Shown one piece after another: positions 6,519 through 53,412 of a stretch of 64,000 nucleotides of DNA. Under the pieces are notes generated by a model that worked only from the letters and a program-made list of their open reading frames with translations, did not search any database and was not told the DNA's origin. The stretch is taken from positions 3,047,001 through 3,111,000 of the forward strand of contig NC_010571.1 of assembly GCF_000019965.1 (NCBI RefSeq), given 5' to 3'. Made by a program: the position numbers and the translations under genes. Each line of letters starts with the position of its first letter. The first letter of the stretch is position 1. Origin of the DNA: Opitutus terrae PB90-1. Lineage in GTDB: Bacteria > Verrucomicrobiota > Verrucomicrobiia > Opitutales > Opitutaceae.

Positions 6519-9461
6519 GTGAAATCCTCCTCTTCCGCTTCGTTCGACAACACCTCCCGTCGCGCTTTGCGCCTCCTCGCCCTGCTCGGAGGCGCCGCCT
6601 CGCTGGTCGCGACCGCGTTCGCCAGCTCTTCCCCTCCGGCCGCAGCTGCCGTCGGTGCCGCGCGCCCGATGGCGTTGGCGCCGGCACCGGATGATCCCGG
6701 GGCCGAGCTGAAGCCGATTCAGCTCGATCCTTACATCGTCGAAGCCAAGGCGGAGCGATCCTGGCGCGCGCGGGAGTCGGACGGCTACGCGCGTCAGGAG
6801 GCGGTGGGCAACCTTGACCTGATGCGAACCGCCGACGATGCGCTGCCGTTCACCATTCTCGAGCGCGAACAAGTTTTCCGGAGCGGCGCGGTGACGCTCG
6901 ATGAATTCCTGCGCCGCGAACTCCTCGACGCGGTCGCGGGCAGCTCGTCGGGACAGAAGGTGAGCGCCAGCAGCTTCAGCAGCCTCACTGCGGACAGTAC
7001 CACGCTGCAGCTCCGCGGCTTCGGGGCGGATGAAACGGTGATTCTCATCAACGGCCGCCGGTTGCCGGAGAGCGTCACGAGCGGCGCGAATTCGCAGCCG
7101 CAAGCGGCGAACGTGAACTTCATTCCGTTGAGTTTGGTGGAGCGCGTCGAGATCCTGCCGGTGTCCGCGTCCGCGCTCTACAGCGGCAATCCCGTGGGCG
7201 GCGTGGTCAACATTGTGCTGCGCCGTGACGTCGAGTTGACGGAGGTCACGGCGAGCACCACGAACGCGCTAAGCGGCTTCGACGCGCCGCAGTCGATGGC
7301 GTCCTTTCTCCACGCCAAGACTCTGCTCGGCGGCGCGCTGCGGCTGCGGTTGAGTGCCACGTTCACGGACGTGATGCCGCCGAGCGAATCCGAGTTGGGC
7401 TACATTCAGGCCCAGCTCCGTGCGCAACCGGACACCGCGCGGATGTATCGCGCCACGCCGAACGTTCGCAGCGCCAATGGCGCGCCGCTCTCTGGCCCGG
7501 GCAGCAGTTCCCGGACTTCGGTGGCGCCGGGAGCAGACGGCACCGGCGGCCGCGGCGCGTTCGCGAACCGCGCGGGACAGGCCAGTCGCGAGTTGTTCGA
7601 TGCTCCCGGAGGCGCAGCGTTTTCACCCAACAGCGTCGATTTCCCCTACGGCCAGCGGCAACACTCGACCAGTTACTACGCCTCGGCGGCCTATGATGTG
7701 AATTCGTGGCTGCAGGTGGGGGTGGACGCGATGTTGTCGCGGACCGAGATCAACCGCGGGTTGGATGTTTTCCCGGCGGATTTGAAGATGGCGCGCAACC
7801 TGCCCGCGAATCCGTTCGGCGAGCCGCTGATTGTTTCCCTCAACGAAATCGCGCCGCTGCTCGGTGATCAGTACAGCCGCGCGCAGCGCGAACTCTCGTC
7901 GGTCGTGCTGGGCGTTCTGGTCCGGCTGCCGGCCGAGTGGAGCGTGTCGCTCGATTCGCAGCGGGCGCGCAACCGCACGCGCTATCGCGGGCTCACCGGT
8001 GTGGATCCGAACCGCTGGCAAAGTCTCGTGGACCAGTCGCTCTACAATCCGCTGCGTGACACCCAGCGCTATGGCCCGCCCGGCGAGTTCTATGATCAGG
8101 CGTTGATCTACGCCGGCGGTCGGGGCCGGACGGTGGCGGTCGGCGACTACGGCACCTGGGACAGCGCGTTGCGCGTGACGAACCGCTCGCTCTGGTTTCC
8201 CACCGGAAGCGCGGCGATCAATTTGGGCGGCGATTTCCGGCTGACGGAGCTCGATCCCTACACCGACGAGCAGCGGTTTGGCGACGGCGTCTATGCTGCG
8301 GTGCCGGTGCGCTGGCGGGGGCGCACGCTGCAGCGACTGAGCGGTTTTGGGGAATTGCAGGCTCCGCTGCTGCCCGCGCGCTGGTTGCCGCGGGCGGTGC
8401 GCGGCCTCGATTTCGACCTGGCCGCGCGGTATACGATCGCGGATACGACGCAGGAAACGAATCTCGCCCCGACCGGCGGGTTGAAGATCGGGTTTCGCGG
8501 CGGCTGGGCGTTGCGCGGCTCGATCGCGACGACGAACCGACTGCCGACGCCGTTCATGAGCCAGAAGGCGCGCGACGCCGGCTTGCGGACGAGCAGCGTG
8601 GGCGCTGCGCAATACGTGCCGATCTATGACCCGCTGCGCGGAGAGCGTTACGGGATTCGCGCCAGCGACGCGGTGAACCCCAACCTGCGGCCGGAGTCGG
8701 CGATGACGCGCACGGTCGGCGTGATCTACGAGCGGGGCGGCGTGCATCGCGTGCGCGCGGCGACGGATTTCGTGGACACCCAGAAATCGGGCGAGCTGAT
8801 CTATCTCGACGCCCAAAACGTGCTGAATCTCGAGCCCCTGTTTCCGGAGCGGGTGGTCCGCGCTCCGCTCGAAGCGGACGACACGCACACCGCGGGCTAC
8901 GTGACCCAGGTGCTGCGCGGCAATTTCAACCTGGCGTGGCGGCATTCGCAGAATGTGAATGCGTCGTTCGACTACGCCTGGACGGCGTGTCGCGGCGGCA
9001 CACTGGACCTCTACTGGCGCTGGGTGGCCCTGCGACGCTACGACCGGCAGTTGCTGCCGCATTCGCGCACGATCGATGCGCTGCACGAGCCGGACAGTGC
9101 CTCGCCGGAGCTGTTGCCGAACCGGATGAACTTCGGCGGCGGCTGGCCCAATCGCAGCTATGGCTTTCGGCTGGACGGTCGGTTTTTCGACGCCCGAACG
9201 CTGCCGTCGACGGAGTGGCGCAGTCAGGGCGCGTCGGAGATCGAGCCATATTATCAGTTCGACGCGAGCGTGCAAAAGGAGCTCGCCGGGTGGTGGCCGT
9301 GGAGGAGCCTGCGCACGAGCCTGCAAGCGCAGCTTCGGGTGAACAACGTCTTCGGAGCGGAGCCGCCGCGTTACGCCAATGATCCGTCAGGCGCCGGTGT
9401 GCAGTCTTACAGCGACTGGCGCGGGCCGACCTATTCCCTCTCGCTGCGCGCGAGCTTTTAG
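6519..9461 (+). CDS. TonB-dependent outer-membrane receptor
   Basis: Outer-membrane active transporter powered by TonB; the substrate is unknown. The GTG at 6519 is preferred because it gives a compact signal peptide (basic TSRRALR, then LLALLGGAASLVATAFA). An in-frame ATG at 6456 would add 21 residues ahead of it, and neither start has a good ribosome binding site. A plug domain follows, with the LQLRGFGADETVILINGRRL stretch and ALYSGNPVGGVVNIVLRRDV, then a long beta-barrel ending in the aromatic-terminated strand YSLSLRASF. DPYIVEA near the mature N-terminus could be the TonB box. At about 980 residues the size is typical. No neighbouring transport gene hints at the ligand. Confidence 0.9.
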   Translation: MKSSSSASFDNTSRRALRLLALLGGAASLVATAFASSSPPAAAAVGAARPMALAPAPDDPGAELKPIQLDPYIVEAKAERSWRARESDGYARQEAVGNLDLMRTADDALPFTILEREQVFRSGAVTLDEFLRRELLDAVAGSSSGQKVSASSFSSLTADSTTLQLRGFGADETVILINGRRLPESVTSGANSQPQAANVNFIPLSLVERVEILPVSASALYSGNPVGGVVNIVLRRDVELTEVTASTTNALSGFDAPQSMASFLHAKTLLGGALRLRLSATFTDVMPPSESELGYIQAQLRAQPDTARMYRATPNVRSANGAPLSGPGSSSRTSVAPGADGTGGRGAFANRAGQASRELFDAPGGAAFSPNSVDFPYGQRQHSTSYYASAAYDVNSWLQVGVDAMLSRTEINRGLDVFPADLKMARNLPANPFGEPLIVSLNEIAPLLGDQYSRAQRELSSVVLGVLVRLPAEWSVSLDSQRARNRTRYRGLTGVDPNRWQSLVDQSLYNPLRDTQRYGPPGEFYDQALIYAGGRGRTVAVGDYGTWDSALRVTNRSLWFPTGSAAINLGGDFRLTELDPYTDEQRFGDGVYAAVPVRWRGRTLQRLSGFGELQAPLLPARWLPRAVRGLDFDLAARYTIADTTQETNLAPTGGLKIGFRGGWALRGSIATTNRLPTPFMSQKARDAGLRTSSVGAAQYVPIYDPLRGERYGIRASDAVNPNLRPESAMTRTVGVIYERGGVHRVRAATDFVDTQKSGELIYLDAQNVLNLEPLFPERVVRAPLEADDTHTAGYVTQVLRGNFNLAWRHSQNVNASFDYAWTACRGGTLDLYWRWVALRRYDRQLLPHSRTIDALHEPDSASPELLPNRMNFGGGWPNRSYGFRLDGRFFDARTLPSTEWRSQGASEIEPYYQFDASVQKELAGWWPWRSLRTSLQAQLRVNNVFGAEPPRYANDPSGAGVQSYSDWRGPTYSLSLRASF

Positions 9462-9481
9462 GCGACGGCGCGATCGCCCGA

Positions 9482-10084
9482 CTACATGTCGGCGATCCGC
9501 GGCGCGCGTCGTCCCGTGAGCACCGCGCCGCGCACAGAGGTGTAGGGCAGCTCGGTGCCGGCGCGCGCAGCTCGCAGCAACAAGCCGCCACGGCTCATGT
9601 CACCGCGGCCGACAAAGTCCTGCGGAAATACCAGCCGATCGCCAAACACGTCGAGCAGCACATCCCGGTATTTCGCCGTCGCGATGCTGCCGAGCAGGAT
9701 CGCGACGCCATCGCGCGGCAGTTGGCGTGCGAGGGCGGCAGCGTCACGGCGCAAGGGCCGGCGGTAGCGCGCATCGGACGCGTCGATGTCGACTTCGCCG
9801 AATGCCCGCAGGTCAGCGGGCATGACAATCAGATCGGGGTCGAGCAGACCCCGGTTCGCGGTGATGACGCGGATCAACTCACCGCGCGCGGTGTCGGCGA
9901 AGCGGCGCGCATAAGCGATCTTGCCGCGGAAGTAGAGCGCACTGGCGAAGGCGAAAATCTCGGCGAGCGGGAGACCGCGGGCGTGAAAGGTGCGGGCCCG
10001 CGGGAAGGGTGCCTTCGGGTTGAGCAGCAGTTGCGCTCGAATTCCGCTGACTTTGGCCGGCGATAGCAGAAACACGCGCTGCAT
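9482..10084 (-). CDS. Conserved-looking hypothetical protein
   Basis: A 200-residue protein with no family that I recognise. It has no signal peptide or membrane segment. It is rich in Arg and Ala, and looks like an alpha/beta fold with strands such as DLIVMP and GVAILLG. It ends 20 bases past the convergent receptor gene and lies 66 bases downstream of the isomerase-like gene on the same strand, so the two may be co-transcribed. The coding frame is supported by uninterrupted length and by the lack of any better overlapping gene. Confidence 0.6.
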
Positions 10085-10150
10085 CCAGACTGTGACCCAG
10101 CGTCGCGCGGCAGGTTCACTTGCGGCTGTTGCCGCTGGGCCCTCGCGGAA

Positions 10151-11035
10151 TTACACGGAGCAGCGTTGCACGGCGTCGCGCAGCGAGGTGAGCGGATCGC
10201 GCTTCGGAATGAACTCCTGCGCCACGAACCCCGTAAAGCCGGTCGCCTTGATCGCGCGCATGATCGCCGGGTAGTAGAGCTCCTGCGTCTCGTCGATTTC
10301 GTTGCGCCCCGGATTGCCGCCGGTGTGGTAGTGACCGATGAACGCGTGGTTCTCCTGAATCGTGCGGATCACGTCGCCCTCCATGATCTGCATGTGGTAG
10401 ATGTCATAGAGCAGCTTGAACCGCTCGGAGCTCACGCGCCGCACGAGTTCCGCCCCCCAGGCGGTGTGATCGCACATGTAGTCCTTGTGGTTCACCTTCG
10501 AGTTGAGCAGCTCCATGCAGATCGTGACGCGCTGTTTTTCCGCTTCACCGACGAGCTGCTTGAGCGCGATGGCGCAGTTCTCCAAGCCCTGTTCGTCCGG
10601 CATGCCGTCGCGATTGCCGGAAAACACGATTACGTTCGGCAGGCCCGCCGCGGCGACGGCGCGGATCCGTTCGATCATCGAGGGGACGTAGTCGGCGTGG
10701 TGCTCGAGCCGGTTGAGGCCGCGCGGAATCGTGGTGGTGCCGTTCGCCATCGCGCAGGTAAGCCCGTGCCGCTGCACGACGGGCCACTCGTCGGGGCCGA
10801 GCAGCTCGACGGAATGCAGCCCGATCTCCTTCGCGGCGCGCGCGAGTTCTTCCAGCGGGATTTTGTTGTAGCACCAGCGGCAGACGGAATGGCGAAAGCC
10901 GGGACCCGCACTCGTAGCCGGCGCGGTTTCCGGCGTGGTCGCGGTCGCGGCGCGGCCGAGTGCAGGGAGGGAACTGGCGGCGGCGAGACTGGCGAGGGAC
11001 AGGACGGCTTGGCGCCGGGTGAGGCCGGGGGGCAT
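10151..11035 (-). CDS. Hydroxypyruvate isomerase-like TIM-barrel protein, probably exported
   Basis: Xylose-isomerase-like TIM-barrel protein of the hydroxypyruvate isomerase (Hyi) type, which interconverts small hydroxy-aldehydes and ketones. The first 30 residues form a Tat-type signal ([20 protein letters not shown], then an Ala-rich end), so it probably acts in the periplasm. Family landmarks are [14 protein letters not shown], the metal-binding Glu in [35 protein letters not shown] and the second Glu in VAQEFIP. The real substrate cannot be told. It is divergent from the superoxide dismutase gene, with only 75 bases between them. Confidence 0.88.
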
Positions 11036-46325: not shown

Positions 46326-47477
46326 ATGTGCCCGCCAATGCTCACCGAATCTCCTGCTGCCTCTGTTTCAAAAACCGCCAAGCCACTCGTGCTGGTGGTG
46401 GACGATGAGTACGGGCCGCGCGAGTCGATCGCGTTCTCGCTTTCGTCCGAATTTACGGTGGAAACGGCGGATCGCGCGGCGGAAGCGCTGGCGAAACTCC
46501 GCGCGCAGCCGTTCGCGGTCGTCGTGCTCGACATCCGCATGCCCGAAATGGACGGCATCCGCGCGCTGGAGGAGATGCGCAAGATCGACCCCTTCGTTTC
46601 CGTGGTGATGCTCACCGGTTACGGCACGCTGTTGACTGCGCAACAGGCGATGCTCGCGGGCGCGAACCAGTATCTGCGCAAGCCGCCCGATATCGCCGAG
46701 CTGCTGGACGCGGTCCGCAAACAGGCGGGCGCCGCCCGGCTGCGGCGGCAGCAGGCGATGATCGCGGACGACCTGCAGGAGATGAACGCCGCGCTCAAGC
46801 GCGAGATGGCACAGACCGCGCCGCAGCTCTGGCAGGGCAAGGCATCGGTCGACCTGGTGCACGATTTGAACAATCCGCTGACGGTCGTCGTGGGGTATTC
46901 GGCGCTGCTGCTCGAGGAGGTGCGGGCGCTCGCGGCGGCCGATCCGGAGCGGAGCGACCGGCTGCAGCGTTACGCCGAGGTGGTGGAGAAGGCCGCGGAG
47001 TATTGTTATCACCTCGCGGAGAACTGGCGGATGGCCTCGCACCAGACCGTCGAGTTCACGCGGCTCGATCTGGTGCAAATCATCCAGGAAGTGCGGCACG
47101 TGGTGTTCTTTGGGGAGATCGCGGTGCAGTTCAGCGGGTTGACGGCGGCGTTCGTGCGCGGCTCGAGATTCGAATTGATGCGGGTTTTCCAAAACGTTTT
47201 CCGCAACGCGCTCGAAGCGGGGGCGAAGCAACTCGTCGTCGGACTGAATCGCGCGGGTGATCGGATCGAAGTCAGCATCAGCGACAATGGCGAGGGCATG
47301 GCGCCGGAGCTGCAACAGCGCGCGTTGAAGGGCGGCTTCAGCAACCGCGAGTATGGACTCGGCCTTGGGCTCGGCATCTGCCGGCACCTGCTCGGCACGC
47401 ACGGCGCGACACTCGACCTGCAGTCCGCGCCCGGGCAGGGAACGACGGTGAAAATGGTGTTCCCCGCGGCGGAGTGA
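46326..47477 (+). CDS. Hybrid protein: response-regulator receiver plus histidine kinase
   Basis: A 383-residue cytoplasmic protein. Residues about 20-135 are a receiver domain: acidic pair in VLVVDDEYGPRE, phospho-acceptor Asp in VVVLDIRMPEMDG, Thr in MLTGYG and Lys in YLRKPPD. A helix then leads to an unusual H-box SVDLVHDLNNPLTVVVGY and a HATPase domain with N-box VFQNVFRNALEAGAK, SDNGEGMAPEL and GLGLGICRHLLGTHGA. The receiver-first order means the kinase may be switched by another kinase, such as one of the two downstream. ATG 46326 or 46338. First gene of a tight run. Confidence 0.92.
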   Translation: MCPPMLTESPAASVSKTAKPLVLVVDDEYGPRESIAFSLSSEFTVETADRAAEALAKLRAQPFAVVVLDIRMPEMDGIRALEEMRKIDPFVSVVMLTGYGTLLTAQQAMLAGANQYLRKPPDIAELLDAVRKQAGAARLRRQQAMIADDLQEMNAALKREMAQTAPQLWQGKASVDLVHDLNNPLTVVVGYSALLLEEVRALAAADPERSDRLQRYAEVVEKAAEYCYHLAENWRMASHQTVEFTRLDLVQIIQEVRHVVFFGEIAVQFSGLTAAFVRGSRFELMRVFQNVFRNALEAGAKQLVVGLNRAGDRIEVSISDNGEGMAPELQQRALKGGFSNREYGLGLGLGICRHLLGTHGATLDLQSAPGQGTTVKMVFPAAE

Positions 47478-47485
47478 GGCGACCG

Positions 47486-47605
47486 ATGAACACGAGCACC
47501 TTTCCGCTGCGAGTTGTGCCCCGCGGCCGCAGCGATCGTCGCGCGGTCGAGCCGGCGGCGCTGCTGACGCTCGGCGAATGGATCGGAAGGTGGGCGTCGC
47601 CATGA
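47486..47605 (+). CDS. 39-residue ORF coupled to the ketosynthase-like gene
   Basis: It starts at ATG 47486, eight bases after the previous stop, with GAGTGAGG upstream, and its TGA overlaps the ATG of the next gene (ATGA at 47602-47605). The protein is MNTSTFPLRVVPRGR at the start, a basic SDRRAV middle and AALLTLGEWIGRWASP at the end, perhaps one short amphipathic helix. No family is known. It may be a real mini-protein or a leader that couples translation. Confidence 0.5.
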   Translation: MNTSTFPLRVVPRGRSDRRAVEPAALLTLGEWIGRWASP

Positions 47606-48810
47606 GGCGTCGCCGCGTCAAGATCACGGGCATCGGTCCGGTGACACCGGCGGGGGTGGGATGCGAGTCCTTTTGGCAGGGGATCACGCAGCCCGTCAGT
47701 CGCGTGCGCCCATTCACCGCGCTGGGGGCGGAACACGGCCCGATCGCGGCGGCGTTTCTGGAACGGTTTAACGTGGCGGAATACGTGAAGCCGACGCCGG
47801 CCCTGCGCGGTGCGGCGCGACACACGCTCTTCGCGGTGGCGGGCACGGCGCTGGCGCTGACGGATGCGGGGCTCGCGCTGGACGAACTGCGCACTGCCAA
47901 CAGCGCGATCGTCACCGGCACGTCGGTGATGGACTTCGGCGGGATTTGCCGCACGGCGGATTCGGTCCACAAGTTCGGCGCGAAAGGCGCGGATGGGCGC
48001 GTGGTGTTCACGACGAACGTGGCGGCGGTCGCGGGAACGATCAACCGGGTGTTCGGACTGGCGGCGCGCACGATGGCGCTGCAGAGCTCCTGTTGCTCCG
48101 GGTTGGACGCGATCGGCCATGCGGCGGGACTGATCGCGCGCGGCGAGGTGGACATCGCGCTGTGTGGCGGCGCCGAGGCGCCGCTGCACCGGATGCCGAT
48201 GCTGGAGTTGCGCGCCGCGGGGCTCGCCCCGCAGAGCGACGAAGGCGCGGCGCGGATCGGCCGGCCGTTCGATTTGTGGCGCACGACGGGCGTGGTGAGC
48301 GAAGGCGCGTGCCTGTTTGTGCTGGAGCCGGAGGAGAGTCCGCGGGCGGGCTACAGCTTCGTGGCGGGCTATGCGCACGCCAGCGACGCGGCGACGGAGC
48401 TCTGCGGCGGAATGGTGCCGGCGATGCGGCGGGCGCTGGCGGATGCGCGGCTGCGACCTGCGGCGATCGATGCGATCAGTGCATGGGGGCCGGGCCATCG
48501 CGAGATCGACGCCGCGGAAACGCGCGCGTTGCAGCAGGTCTTCAACGGCGCGCTGCAGGACATCCCGGTCGTCTCGATCAAGGGTGCAATCGGCACGCCG
48601 CTCGGCGCGTCGGGGGCGATTCAAGTCGCGGCGGCGGCGCTGGGCCAGCGCGCAGCCGTGGTGCCGCCGACGGCGAACTGGGAGTATCCAGATCCCGCTT
48701 GCGAGCTGAACCTGAGCGCGCGCGCGCGGGCCCTGCCTCAGGCGCGGGTGCTGGTCAACGCGCACGGGCTTGCTGGCGTGAATACCGCGGTAATTCTCGA
48801 GCGATGCTAG
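47602..48810 (+). CDS. Beta-ketoacyl synthase-like protein lacking both catalytic His
   Basis: A 402-residue thiolase-fold protein aligned along its length with FabF-type synthases. The nucleophile Cys164 is kept (LQSSCCSGLDAIGHA), and Lys327 too (SIKGAIG). The first catalytic His (FabF AHGTST) is Trp295 in SAWGPGH, and the second (FabF TGHLLGAAG) is Thr332 in IGTPLGASG. The GFGGTN loop reads GLAGVN. Decarboxylative condensation should thus fail; acyl transfer or binding through Cys remains possible. No acyl carrier or other fatty-acid genes are nearby. ATG 47602 overlaps the mini-ORF; ATG 47578 is an alternative. Its end overlaps the kinase gene by seven bases. Confidence 0.88.
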   Translation: MRRRRVKITGIGPVTPAGVGCESFWQGITQPVSRVRPFTALGAEHGPIAAAFLERFNVAEYVKPTPALRGAARHTLFAVAGTALALTDAGLALDELRTANSAIVTGTSVMDFGGICRTADSVHKFGAKGADGRVVFTTNVAAVAGTINRVFGLAARTMALQSSCCSGLDAIGHAAGLIARGEVDIALCGGAEAPLHRMPMLELRAAGLAPQSDEGAARIGRPFDLWRTTGVVSEGACLFVLEPEESPRAGYSFVAGYAHASDAATELCGGMVPAMRRALADARLRPAAIDAISAWGPGHREIDAAETRALQQVFNGALQDIPVVSIKGAIGTPLGASGAIQVAAAALGQRAAVVPPTANWEYPDPACELNLSARARALPQARVLVNAHGLAGVNTAVILERC

Positions 48811-50792
48811 TCACGTCCGCGCTGCTGGCCGCGGCGATCAGCGTCATCGCCGCCCTCCTGATCCTGTGGTCGAACCCGGCCCGGAACGTCAATCGCGCCA
48901 TTTTCAGCTGCACGCTGCATCTGGCCGCGTGGCTGTTCTGCCTGCACCTGGCCTTTGTCCTCGTTCCGGGCCTGCCGTGGGTGCGCCTCGCCTCCGCGGT
49001 GGGCACGTGGCTGCCGATGCATTTCTGGATCGTGAAGCAGACGATCGTGATTCCGCCGGGCGAGTATGGCCGCGGCTGGCTGCGGCGGCACTGGGCCTGG
49101 ATTGCGCTCTGCTCCCTGCTGGCGGGCGTGTGTTTCACCACCTGGTTCGTGCCGGCGCATTCGACCGGGACGAATCGGATCTACGGCTGGGGCTACTACG
49201 GCTACATTGCAGTCAACCTCGGGCTGTATGCGTTTCTGTTGCGCGACGCCTGGGTGGGCACACGCAAGCTGAGCGGCGTGCGCCGGCTCGAGCTGCAGGT
49301 CTGGTTGCTCGGTGGATGCTCGACGGCAGCGGGCATCCTCGCGCTGATGAGCTTGAGCGCATTGACGCACGACCGCTCCTACGTGCGGTTGCAGCCGCTC
49401 GTGGTGCTCTTGTTCTACGGCGCGACCGCCTACGCGATCACCACGCACCGGATCCTGAATGCCCGCCAGCTGCTCATGGTCGCCGGCAGCCGGCTGATGC
49501 TGGTGATGGTGGCGTCGGCGGTGGCGTTCCTGCTCGATCGGGCGCTGTCCGCCGTGTTCTCGGACGTGGTGGCGCTGCTGATCACGACGGGCGCCGTGCT
49601 GCTGCTCGCGGCGGAACTCAACACGTGGCTGCAGCAAACGCTGCGACTCTATCCGCAGGCGGGCGCGGCGCGGCTGGCGGCGTTCGAGATCGCCCGCCGC
49701 GAAATGGAAATCGCGCGACTCCTGCCGGCGTTTTCCCGGCTGATCAAAGGGTGGGGGCAGACCGAGCGCACCCTGCTGGCTTTCGGGGAAAAAGATCTGC
49801 TCTCCGGCGATGGTGAAGCGATCGCGGACGGCGCCGCCGTGCGTGCGCTGCGCGCATTGCGCTGGGCGACGCCCGAACGGCTGGCGCGCGAACGCAACAG
49901 CCCGGACCGCGCCGAGCTCGCGCGGCTGCTGGAGGAGCGGCGGCTCGGCGTGGCGGTAATCGCCGAAGGGCCGACCCTGACGGCGATCGTTGGCGCCGGC
50001 GTGCCGGTCTCGCGCCGGCCTTTTACGTATCCACAAGTCTCGCATCTGGTGGAACTCGCGGCGATCATGCAGGCGGCCATCGAGCGCGCGCATTTCTCGG
50101 TCAAAGCCCAGCGCGCGGAGCAGCTGGCGACGGTGGGCCTGATGGGTGCGGGGCTGGCCCACGAAATCCGGAATCCGCTGGTCACGATCAAGACCTTCGT
50201 CCAGCTGCTGCCGAAGCACTATGATGATCGCGCCTTCCGCGAAAAGTTCACCGGGCTGATCGGCGATGAGGTGACGCGGATCGATCACCTCACCGAGCAG
50301 CTGCTGGATCTGGCGTCGCCGCGCGCCTACAGCCCGCAAAACATCGAGCTGCATGCGGTCCTCCAATCGGGTCTGGAACTCGTGTCCGGCAAGGCGCGTG
50401 ATCGTCGCGTCGAGCTTCGCCGAGAGCTGGATGCGGCGCCGGACCGCGTGCTGTCGGACGCCGCGGCGGTGAAACAGGTGTTGCTCAATCTGTGCTTGAA
50501 CGCGATTCAGGCGATTCCGTCCGATGCTGCCGAGCGCTGGGTCCGCGTGGCCACCCGGCGCGTGGAGCGCGGCATCGAACTGGTCGTGGAGGACAGCGGA
50601 CCGGGGATTCCCGCGGAAATTCGAGCGCGGTTGTTTCAACCTTTTCAGTCCACGAAATCGTCGGGCTTCGGGCTTGGATTGGCGGTGTGCAGTGACATCG
50701 TTGCTCGCTTGGATGCGACGATCGTGGCGGATCCGGCGCAACCCGGACGCGGCGCGACGTTCCGCGTGGTGTTGCCATGTCCAGCCTCGTGA
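48804..50792 (+). CDS. Multi-pass membrane sensor histidine kinase
   Basis: A 662-residue kinase. The N-terminal half has about seven to eight hydrophobic segments (MLVTSALLAAAISVIAALLI, HLAAWLFCLHLAFVLV, WIALCSLLAGVCFTTWFV and more up to ALLITTGAVLLLAAEL, near residue 270), as in 7TM-type receptors. A linker region, perhaps GAF-like, follows to about 430. The HisKA domain has LMGAGLAHEIRNPLVTIKTF, and the HATPase domain NLCLNAIQAIP, VVEDSGPGIPAEIR and GFGLGLAVCSDIV. All catalytic boxes are intact. It overlaps the ketosynthase-like gene by seven bases and the next gene by 16. Confidence 0.93.
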   Translation: MLVTSALLAAAISVIAALLILWSNPARNVNRAIFSCTLHLAAWLFCLHLAFVLVPGLPWVRLASAVGTWLPMHFWIVKQTIVIPPGEYGRGWLRRHWAWIALCSLLAGVCFTTWFVPAHSTGTNRIYGWGYYGYIAVNLGLYAFLLRDAWVGTRKLSGVRRLELQVWLLGGCSTAAGILALMSLSALTHDRSYVRLQPLVVLLFYGATAYAITTHRILNARQLLMVAGSRLMLVMVASAVAFLLDRALSAVFSDVVALLITTGAVLLLAAELNTWLQQTLRLYPQAGAARLAAFEIARREMEIARLLPAFSRLIKGWGQTERTLLAFGEKDLLSGDGEAIADGAAVRALRALRWATPERLARERNSPDRAELARLLEERRLGVAVIAEGPTLTAIVGAGVPVSRRPFTYPQVSHLVELAAIMQAAIERAHFSVKAQRAEQLATVGLMGAGLAHEIRNPLVTIKTFVQLLPKHYDDRAFREKFTGLIGDEVTRIDHLTEQLLDLASPRAYSPQNIELHAVLQSGLELVSGKARDRRVELRRELDAAPDRVLSDAAAVKQVLLNLCLNAIQAIPSDAAERWVRVATRRVERGIELVVEDSGPGIPAEIRARLFQPFQSTKSSGFGLGLAVCSDIVARLDATIVADPAQPGRGATFRVVLPCPAS

Positions 50793-52555
50793 TTTTCGCC
50801 ACCTTTGACCCGGCTCTCGCCGAGGCGTGGGAACGGCAGCTGCCGCCGGGCCGCCCCGCGCTGCGGTTCGACAGCCGGCGCTGGGGTCCGGGCCCGGCGC
50901 CGGGCTTTTCGGCGGTGGTGGTGCTCGATGCGGCGGCAGAACATTCGTTGCCGGCGGCGCTCGCGAGTTGTCCGACAATCTACGTCGGCGAGCCGCGCAG
51001 CGTGCCGTTCGAGCAGGCGCGGCTGGCGGGCCGCGCACGGATTTATTTGTCGTATGAGGACAGCGCGAGCCGGTTGCGCGAGCTGCTGCCGCTGCTCGAG
51101 GAACTGGCCGAGAAGCAGAGTCTCGTGGAGTTGTTGACGGAGAAGGCGCGGCGGCCCGAGCCGATCCGGCCCGCACCGCGGCCGACCGTGCACGATACGC
51201 TCGAGCTGTGGGATTTTCTCGAGGGGGCGATGGAGAGCCTGCACGACCGGCAGCGGCTGCTGGCGGAGTTTCGGCGCGCCGCGCGCTTCTGGCTGCGAGC
51301 TTCGCACGCGATCTTCTTTTTGCGGGAGGCGGACGAATTTCGCGCGGATCGGGAAGCGCTGGCGTTCGCGCCGGACGACCCGCTCGTGACGTACTTCGAA
51401 ACCCATCCGGCGGTGGTGGACGGCACGAAATGGGTGGGGCCGGTGGACGCCGTCGCCGAGCTGGCGGTGCGCAATCGCATGACGCTGTGGGCGGCGCGGC
51501 TGTTCGTGCCGATTCACGACAACGCGCGGCTGCTGGGCCTGATCGCGTTTGGCGTGCGGGACGACGGACAGCCGTACGACGAGGCGGACCAGGCGCGGGG
51601 AGTTTTTTTCGCGCGGCTGCTGCGGCATTGTCTGGAGCAGGTCGACCAGCTGGCGCGGCTGCACCGGTTGGCGGATCAGGCGCGCGTCGGAGCGAAATAT
51701 CTGCCCGCGACGCTCGTGCTCGGACCGGCGGAGGAGCCGCCGCGGCACGTGCCACTGATCGTCCGTGAGCTCATCGGCCAGGCGCGGCAGACCCGCGAAT
51801 CCTGCCGCCTGCCCGCGAGCGCCGGTCAGCCGTTTCGCGCTGCGGCGGGTCTGATTGCCGAGACCGGCGGCGTCTGGGCCTCGTGGGAGGAGGCGAGCGA
51901 CGAGGTGCGCGAGCGCGTGGAAGCGCAGCGGAGCGCGCGGCGCGAGTTGCTGCGCGAGCTGGCGCTGACGCTCAGCCACGAAATCGGCAACGCCCTCGTG
52001 TCACTGGCGACGCTGCGGCAGCGACCGGCGGAGCCGCCGCCGCCGGCGGGACTGCTCGCGACGGTGAAGGCCGACATCGCGAAACTGGAGGCGTTGAACG
52101 CGGACCTCGAGCGGATGCAGGCCTTGCATGAATCGGATCCGGCGCCGACGGACTTGCGCGAGGTGGCGGACAAGATCGGGCGCGAGCTGGGGCTGGCGGT
52201 CGAGGTCGCGGCTGAGCCGATCGTACTGCCGGTTTTTCCAGCTTTGGTGGAGTTCGCGCTGCGGGCGCTGATCCGGACGGTGGCGGAGAATCGCGGCGAA
52301 CTCGGCGCGCGGGATCTCACGCTGCGCGTGCGCGGCACCGGCGCGGGTACGGCGCTCACGGCGTTGTTTGCCATCAAAGGCCGGCCACTCGAGCTCGAGG
52401 GAATCCTGCCGTCGGCGGCGGACAGCACGGTGCCAAACCAGGGACGGCTGGCGGTATTTCTGGCGAAAGAAGTGCTGCGGCTGCACCATGGCGAGATTCA
52501 CGCGGGGCCGGGGTTGGAAGGAACGGAAATCCTGCTTTCGCTGCGCGGAGTGTGA
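50777..52555 (+). CDS. Soluble histidine-kinase-like protein with degenerate ATPase domain
   Basis: A 592-residue protein. Residues 1-95 look like a receiver-like alpha/beta domain without its Asp (MSSLVIFATFDPALAEAW, FSAVVVLDAAAE). The middle (about 140-300) resembles a GAF domain (LFVPIHDNARLLGLIAFGVR). Near 400 there is a good H-box ELALTLSHEIGNALVSLATL. The ATP-binding part is eroded: the N-box Asn is replaced (LIRTVAENRGE), the G1 DxGxG box is absent, and only a weak end (VFLAKEVLRLHHGEIHAG) is left. It may be phosphorylated by another kinase or act as a scaffold. It overlaps the 662-aa kinase gene by 16 bases. Confidence 0.82.
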   Translation: MSSLVIFATFDPALAEAWERQLPPGRPALRFDSRRWGPGPAPGFSAVVVLDAAAEHSLPAALASCPTIYVGEPRSVPFEQARLAGRARIYLSYEDSASRLRELLPLLEELAEKQSLVELLTEKARRPEPIRPAPRPTVHDTLELWDFLEGAMESLHDRQRLLAEFRRAARFWLRASHAIFFLREADEFRADREALAFAPDDPLVTYFETHPAVVDGTKWVGPVDAVAELAVRNRMTLWAARLFVPIHDNARLLGLIAFGVRDDGQPYDEADQARGVFFARLLRHCLEQVDQLARLHRLADQARVGAKYLPATLVLGPAEEPPRHVPLIVRELIGQARQTRESCRLPASAGQPFRAAAGLIAETGGVWASWEEASDEVRERVEAQRSARRELLRELALTLSHEIGNALVSLATLRQRPAEPPPPAGLLATVKADIAKLEALNADLERMQALHESDPAPTDLREVADKIGRELGLAVEVAAEPIVLPVFPALVEFALRALIRTVAENRGELGARDLTLRVRGTGAGTALTALFAIKGRPLELEGILPSAADSTVPNQGRLAVFLAKEVLRLHHGEIHAGPGLEGTEILLSLRGV

Positions 52556-52575
52556 CGGCGAACTTGCGGAGGAAC

Positions 52576-53412
52576 ATGAATCTGGCGGAGCAAATGACCC
52601 GGTGGGCGGAGCGCCAGCGTTCCGTGAACGCGCTGTGGCTGATCGGTTCGCAGGTGCGGGCGACCCGCGACGTCGTGGAGCGCGCCGATGCGCAGTCGGA
52701 TTGGGACTTCCAGATCGTCACGTCGCTACCGGAGCGATTCGCGACGGCCGCGTGGACGAGTGAGCTCGGACTGCGGGTGGTGAACTACGCGGTACGTCGG
52801 GCGGCGATCAGCGGCCTGCCGAAAGTCGCGGTGCGCTTCGCCACGGCGGAAGCGGATCTGGTGGTGCTGCCGGCGGGCCGGCTGCGATTCGCGCGGTGGG
52901 CCGTGCGGCTTGGGTGGCACCGGCGCTCGGCAGGATTGCGACGGAGCCTGCAGGATCTCGCGGTGGTCATCCGACCTGGCTGGAGAATGCTGAAGGGCGG
53001 GCCGGCCTGGCAGGCGTTTTGTGAGCGGGTCGTGGCCGAGGTGCCCGATCCGCGGCTAAGCGATGCGGCGGCGCGCAATCTCGCCGAGGGGTTCGTGTGC
53101 GATGCGATCTGGGTGGAAAGGAAGATCGACCGCGGTGAGTGGCTGGCCGCGCAACGGATGCTGCACCGGTCGCTGGCCGAGACGAATTTTCAGCTGTTGC
53201 ACGAATTGAAGCTGCGTTGCGGCGAGCGGAGTTTTCCCGAGGCGCGGCGCGCTGAGCGGGTGCTGCCGGCGGCGGAGCGCGCGATGATCGCGGTGGCGGC
53301 GCGGCCCGAGCCTGGCGACTTGCGGGCCGCGCTGGAAATGAGTGCTACGACCTGCCGCGCGTTGATGCAGGCGCTCGTCGGCGCCACGTGGCAGTGGCCG
53401 GAAACACCGTAA
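52576..53412 (+). CDS. Nucleotidyltransferase related to aminoglycoside 6-adenylyltransferase
   Basis: A 278-residue protein with the adenylyltransferase-fold signature LWLIGSQVRATRDVVERADA and SDWDFQIV, so the GS and DxD motifs are intact. The middle and end are helical, as in streptomycin 6-adenylyltransferase (AadE type). A resistance function is not implied. The start may be ATG 52576 (GGAGG three bases before) or GTG 52552, which overlaps the previous stop (GTGA) and adds eight residues. It closes the six-gene signalling run, so it might be the output enzyme that modifies a small molecule or protein. Confidence 0.82.
   Translation: MNLAEQMTRWAERQRSVNALWLIGSQVRATRDVVERADAQSDWDFQIVTSLPERFATAAWTSELGLRVVNYAVRRAAISGLPKVAVRFATAEADLVVLPAGRLRFARWAVRLGWHRRSAGLRRSLQDLAVVIRPGWRMLKGGPAWQAFCERVVAEVPDPRLSDAAARNLAEGFVCDAIWVERKIDRGEWLAAQRMLHRSLAETNFQLLHELKLRCGERSFPEARRAERVLPAAERAMIAVAARPEPGDLRAALEMSATTCRALMQALVGATWQWPETP

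Follow-up and report, generated by a model that had tools for sequence, protein, structure and literature searches.

A histidine kinase operon with a linked ketosynthase in Opitutus terrae and its relation to a conserved, probably acyl-responsive signalling system

A compact run of open reading frames in Opitutus terrae PB90-1 places histidine kinases next to a ketosynthase and a nucleotidyltransferase, which raises the question of whether genes of such different kinds form one functional unit and, if they do, what that unit senses and controls. The locus lies within a window of 64,000 nucleotides (NC_010571.1, positions 3,047,001 to 3,111,000) taken from the complete genome of 5,957,605 bases; coordinates of the locus refer to this window.

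46326..47477, + strand: P1, receiver-controlled histidine kinase, REC-HisKA-HATPase, without a DNA-binding domain (Pfam, motif alignment)
47486..47605, + strand: 39-aa reading frame, probably no gene (tblastn without a significant match in 40 relatives; P1-KS spacing there often -4 to 44 bases)
47602..48810, + strand: P3, FabF-like ketosynthase (KS) with an altered active site (Pfam, alignments, clade distinct from FabF)
48804..50792, + strand: P4, membrane histidine kinase with an N-terminal 7TM-type region and intact HisKA-HATPase (Pfam, N-terminal profile)
50777..52555, + strand: P5, pseudo-kinase and probable histidine phosphotransferase (AlphaFold, Foldseek, motif comparison)
52576..53412, + strand: P6, small-molecule nucleotidyltransferase (NTase) of LinB/ANT(6) fold (alignment, model, Foldseek)

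The first-pass annotation of this DNA had described a six-gene operon, and its coordinates and junctions for all six reading frames proved correct. P1 is separated from the 39-aa frame by 8 bases, and the latter shares an ATGA overlap with the KS gene; KS and P4 overlap by 7 bases and P4 and P5 by 16, and P6 begins either at GTG 52552, in a GTGA overlap with P5, or at ATG 52576, after a 20-base gap. The domains proposed for three of the proteins were likewise recovered by Pfam, namely REC, HisKA and HATPase in P1, the N- and C-terminal ketoacyl-synt domains in KS, and HisKA and HATPase in P4. The number of genes did not stand. No significant tblastn match to the 39-aa frame was found at the loci of 40 relatives, where the P1-KS spacing commonly ranges from a 4-base overlap up to at most 60 bases, save where another gene intervenes. 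Lacking a homologue, and often any room between P1 and KS in relatives, this frame is probably not a gene. Judged from these sequence comparisons, the operon is real and comprises five genes: P1, KS, P4, P5 and the NTase.

Within the family, we sampled 200 Opitutaceae genomes and fetched 40 loci for gene order. Of the 200 genomes, 67 carry the KS subfamily, 73 carry P5 and 71 the NTase; 63 have KS together with P5, 62 have all three and 121 have none, and several of the exceptions to co-occurrence are incomplete MAGs. Across the 200 genomes, and with shared ancestry ignored, co-occurrence with P5 gave a Fisher p of 4e-36 for KS and a p of 5e-46 for the NTase. The order P1-KS-P4-P5-NTase holds in most of the fetched loci. 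Genes at the KS-P4 junction overlap or lie no more than 30 bases apart in 36/36 cases, those at the P4-P5 junction in 36/37, and nearly all relatives show a true overlap at both. In most family genomes the locus is flanked by rmuC on one side and an ABC-ATPase gene on the other, indicating vertical inheritance.

That conserved site between rmuC and the ABC-ATPase gene could be taken to mean that unrelated genes have merely come together by chance in a GC-rich genome, since vertical inheritance alone could hold neighbours together within a family. Against this, genomes of groups g37 and g40 have rearranged surroundings and yet retain KS-P4-P5, overlapping starts are kept, and the core of KS followed by two histidine kinases (KS-HK-HK) turns up again in further families and phyla, where its chromosomal surroundings differ. 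A chance cluster is thus extremely improbable, and the conserved order and co-occurrence in the family and beyond lead us to reject it. The locus varies in its other members: in one genus (g37) the NTase gene is inverted and placed between P1 and KS, and in g38 and g40 a FAD-linked oxidase gene has been inserted. Two Opitutaceae genomes (L089, L090) keep P1-P4-P5 without KS and NTase, which implies that the kinases can work without KS.

Individual genomes depart further from this layout. At L105 (G175, about 7832-10349) an apparent deletion has fused the receiver of P1 with the C-terminal half of P5, removing KS and the membrane kinase but leaving the NTase in place. G003, the only other sampled genome of the genus, lacks the KS subfamily, P5 and the NTase.

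Outside the family, a further family of the same class also encodes KS relatives, at 34-38% identity. When an alignment combining the two KS groups was used as query against about 85,000 GTDB species genomes, 137 KS relatives were found, and the best 80 of these 137 belong to Verrucomicrobiota, Kiritimatiellota, Lentisphaerota or PVC-group bacteria, plus a few uncultured bacteria. A 7TM-kinase frame follows the KS gene in every locus in which the contig continues; at L174 and L210, where no kinase was seen, the contig stops inside the KS gene. A second kinase follows the 7TM kinase wherever the contig is long enough, with the exception of L167, and a REC-kinase lies beside the module, usually divergent, in loci with at least 4 kb upstream, except L167 and L206. 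Direct domain searches of representative loci returned HisKA_7TM, HisKA, HATPase, GAF and PAS, an NtrC-type combination of REC, Sigma54_activat and HTH_8, FadL/TodX (183 bits) and FAD_binding_4. The extra gene of L087, L091-L093 and L100 had been considered an AMP-ligase from its N-terminus; Pfam identified it as FAD_binding_4, and the ligase assignment was dropped.

Scattering of the genes among related genomes had been named at the outset as grounds for doubting the unit. The genes are not scattered: their order holds over genera, and the core over three NCBI phyla. Since this block, with its signatures of co-translation, persists in much of the Verrucomicrobia-related bacteria, it is a real, apparently undescribed signalling system, for which an acyl (fatty-acid-like) compound is the probable stimulus.

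The two intact kinases are of recognizable types. P1 motifs (the REC Asp with DDE, the H-box HDxxNPL, the N-box and GxG) are conserved in 39 sequences, and the protein possibly starts at ATG 46338, Met5 being the better conserved start. Its Pfam domain order of REC, DHp and CA with no DNA-binding output is that of Rec-controlled histidine kinases, for which LvrB of Leptospira and PhcR of Ralstonia provide precedent, and this shared architecture supports the receiver as the input of P1. The likeness extends to the conserved motifs and to a second sensor kinase alongside, whereas P1 differs in its partners, which here are a ketosynthase, a pseudo-kinase and an NTase, joined in relatives by an NtrC regulator and a FadL-like transporter. 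The N-terminal profile of P4 matches those of its relatives, one of which scores above the cut-off of PF16927 (HisKA_7TM). PrsK of the XrtA/PEP-CTERM system and the AtoS/AtoC-type sigma54 systems likewise combine a kinase bearing an N-terminal membrane region with an NtrC-type regulator, as found in relatives of this operon, but P4 scores far below the cut-off of the PrsK model TIGR02916 (88.4 against 300 bits), and we know of no ketosynthase or REC-kinase in those systems. Some loci encode, divergently near P1, another kinase of the 7TM type that shares 24-34% identity with P4 (L072:5193-7232, L096:5711-7789 and L108, in operon-orientation coordinates).

For P5 and P6 the first-pass annotation had proposed an eroded kinase and an adenylyltransferase-fold enzyme; neither protein matched a family in Pfam or NCBIfam, but structure confirmed both identities. 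In the AlphaFold model of P5 (pLDDT 84.7, pTM 0.42), a degenerate receiver-like N-terminus precedes a GAF-like domain, which is followed by the DHp hairpin and then a CA-like domain; the predicted packing of these domains is uncertain, and the model matches sensor kinases in Foldseek. H401-E402, which includes the acceptor His of the DHp-like hairpin, is invariant. None of the sampled Opitutaceae P5 sequences has the N-box, DxGxG or GLGL motif, whereas nearly all of 54 homologues from outside the family have them intact; P5 is therefore a descendant of a working kinase and has kept only its His. ChpT, which also resembles a kinase, cannot autophosphorylate (PMC3433190); P5 shares with ChpT and Spo0B a kinase-like architecture in which the acceptor His is kept and the ATPase motifs are gone, but it differs in carrying receiver-like and GAF-like domains and in that the intact ancestral kinase type survives in relatives. 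The earlier proposal of one signalling unit that includes a pseudo-kinase is borne out to this extent: gene order is conserved, and an acceptor His kept without ATPase motifs is what would be expected of a phosphorelay intermediate.

The model of P6 (pLDDT 95.5) aligns over its whole length in Foldseek with LinB (3jyy; E 1.2e-7, TM 0.67/0.70) and ANT(6)-Ib (8vxb), with TM values of 0.61-0.70 overall. Residues G24, D42, D44 and D94 are invariant and S25 is conserved in >90%, such that the GS, the DxD and the third Asp are kept. The whole-length fold and these GS-DxD-D residues are shared with the LinB/ANT(6) antibiotic nucleotidyltransferases, from which P6 differs in its 12-14% identity, its lack of a family assignment and its place within a signalling operon. 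Among family genomes it occurs almost only alongside this operon, and by its distribution the putative enzyme is a lineage-specific addition of the Opitutaceae. Lone partial NTase copies without P5, possibly operon remnants, occur at G031:C10:21320-21985 and G091:C38:12996-13478.

The ketosynthase is the least expected member of such a unit. P3 keeps Cys164 and Lys327, while the two canonical His residues are replaced by Trp295 and Thr332; further His residues are His299, in a conserved GPGH, and His388. In 110 members aligned to E. coli FabF (FabF numbering), the nucleophile Cys164 is present in 110/110 and Lys336 in 109/110. At the second catalytic His (His341), 99 members have Asn, 10 have Thr, Ser or Ala, and a single one retains His. 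At the first (His304), Opitutaceae sequences have Trp in 35/36 and Cys in 1/36; elsewhere Tyr occupies the position in 8 f18 loci and 36 others, and His is still found in 26/66 of the wider set. The Opitutaceae KS also has the conserved GPGH His, at FabF position 308, and another His at 399. Parsimony on the KS tree places four changes at His304. Loss of the second His is thus common to the KS family, and the Opitutaceae and Chthoniobacterales lines have lost the first His too.

Such replacements separate P3 from the ketosynthases with which it might be grouped. Its sequence is FabF-like, with Cys and Lys kept as in KAS II, but in a quick tree all KS rows group together in a clade separate from the FabF-type proteins (SH-aLRT 99), the second His is Asn in nearly all members, and P3 reaches 207.9 bits against the NCBIfam fabF cut-off of 493.75 bits. 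The Cys-Trp-Thr triad of P3 is neither the Cys-His-His of KAS II nor the Cys-His-Asn of FabH-like enzymes; some Kiritimatiellia-type KSs share the latter set with FabH-like priming KSs, while their sequence family is FabF-like. Non-elongating KS0 domains, which are inactive KSs, have lost the HGT-motif His and kept the Cys. The KS resembles them in this respect but, in P3, is a stand-alone protein of 402 aa with no PKS gene adjacent, encoded in a kinase operon rather than as a domain of a trans-AT PKS. The description of the ketosynthase as dead-looking is thus half right: both canonical His residues are replaced, but with Cys and Lys kept the site is altered, not simply dead. The invariant Cys argues for retained thioester chemistry, and Trp or Tyr in place of the first catalytic His makes condensation doubtful in Opitutaceae and Chthoniobacterales. 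Elsewhere in the same genome, very large open frames that contain six ketosynthase domains (G000:C1:2458000-2504000) mark a modular polyketide synthase cluster.

The Kiritimatiellia-type loci suggest what the circuit may control. An NtrC-type sigma54 regulator gene follows the second kinase in 15 loci, as detected by BLAST with an AAA domain, which replaced a strict GAFTGA motif search that had recovered NtrC in only 7. In 25 loci a FadL-like gene opens the divergent side; the REC-kinase gene comes next and, in some cases, that of a FAD-linked oxidase. Upstream of these FadL genes, a -24/-12-like site with at most two mismatches was found in 20/25 loci and with at most one in 15/25, the 25 loci being related to one another and so not independent draws; the corresponding control rates were 4.4% and 0.7% for shuffled sequence, and 9% and 0.8% for windows taken elsewhere. 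The sites mostly precede the aligned FadL start by 67-143 bases. FadL proteins transport hydrophobic and acyl compounds, and homologues are able to import long-chain acyl signals (PMC5977203). In FadL-bearing loci the circuit probably drives its own hydrophobic-compound importer. The first-pass annotation had considered nucleotidyl transfer or acyl binding as the output; the layout suggests that the ancestral output was an NtrC-type sigma54 regulator that controlled a FadL-type transporter operon, and that acyl chemistry belonged to the input. Other genes adjoin some of these loci: a group II intron reverse transcriptase-like frame lies between REC-kinase and FadL-like gene at L182:4519-5802, and acyltransferase-like and methyltransferase-like genes, suggestive of lipid chemistry, adjoin the REC-kinase/FadL side at L199:3968-6354.

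Opitutaceae loci contain neither FadL nor NtrC, and the ancestral function may therefore have changed there. The operon in the window has no linked NtrC or FadL partner, and the best sigma54 candidate upstream of P1 has four mismatches and is unconvincing. Elsewhere, the host genome encodes 10 NtrC-type homologues and one FadL-family gene, which lacks the GFRNPP start typical of operon-linked FadL, so no partner can be named for this operon.

FadL, the FAD-linked oxidase and sigma54 control together resemble substrate-induced operons, and the kinases and regulator might accordingly govern uptake and use of hydrophobic substrates, such as lipids or hydrocarbons, with KS and oxidase as metabolic enzymes that have no part in signalling. 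We consider this quite unlikely, because KS is retained in Opitutaceae, where FadL, oxidase and NtrC are gone, because it directly overlaps the kinase gene in every such relative with data, and because its catalytic His residues have been lost while its linkage to the kinase has not.

We tentatively favour, at rather less than even confidence, the reading of the operon as the Opitutaceae form of a conserved acyl-linked two-component or phosphorelay module. Under this model, the Cys of KS would take up an acyl group as a thioester that, in Opitutaceae at least, does not go on to condensation; either the loaded enzyme or its product would be the input to the membrane kinase P4. P4 would then phosphorylate the P1 receiver and thereby switch the P1 kinase, and P5 would hand phosphoryl groups via His401 to response regulators encoded elsewhere, given that no output regulator is left in the operon of the window. 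The NTase would transfer a nucleotidyl group to a small molecule, perhaps inactivating or tuning the ligand. A stronger form, in which a non-condensing KS has become the subunit through which a histidine kinase senses, with the acyl thioester on KS reporting fatty-acid-derived metabolites to the co-translated 7TM kinase in a system conserved across Verrucomicrobiota, Kiritimatiellota and Lentisphaerota, is, as a whole, unlikely.

Alternatively, the signal could be self-made: KS, with the FAD-linked oxidase or the NTase depending on lineage, would make or modify a diffusible acyl signal sensed by P4, much as in the Phc system of Ralstonia, with P1 in the place of PhcR. A synthase, a membrane kinase and a REC-kinase in one operon follow the Phc plan; like phcBSRQ, the operon joins an acyl-chemistry enzyme to a membrane kinase and a REC-kinase without a DNA-binding domain. 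The Cys-His-Asn set of some Kiritimatiellia-type KSs and the import of acyl signals by FadL homologues point the same way. Yet the Trp or Tyr at the first catalytic His in Opitutaceae and Chthoniobacterales makes condensation doubtful, the 7TM kinase is of a generic type, no known signal synthase is present, and the PhcB methyltransferase is missing from the operon, among whose reading frames Pfam and NCBIfam detected no methyltransferase. The operon also differs from phcBSRQ in lacking PhcQ and in belonging to other phyla. A self-made signal is a doubtful explanation, though one to be taken seriously.

In the open-access papers searched, none was found that joins a ketosynthase or ketoacyl enzyme and a histidine kinase with Opitutus, Verrucomicrobia, FadL or sigma54. 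Each part is of a known kind, and the combination and the depth of its conservation appear new. We class the system as a two-component system with a linked enzyme and not as a member of Phc, KAS II, KAS III or KS0. If the acyl-linked module is as proposed, poorly understood phyla would gain a conserved signalling system with a ready input class, acyl or hydrophobic compounds, together with a clear evolutionary series in which a ketosynthase and a kinase both remain part of the circuit even as the former loses the residues for decarboxylation and the latter its ATPase. It would also make testable the idea of a fatty-acid enzyme serving as the sensor, or the signal source, of a kinase.
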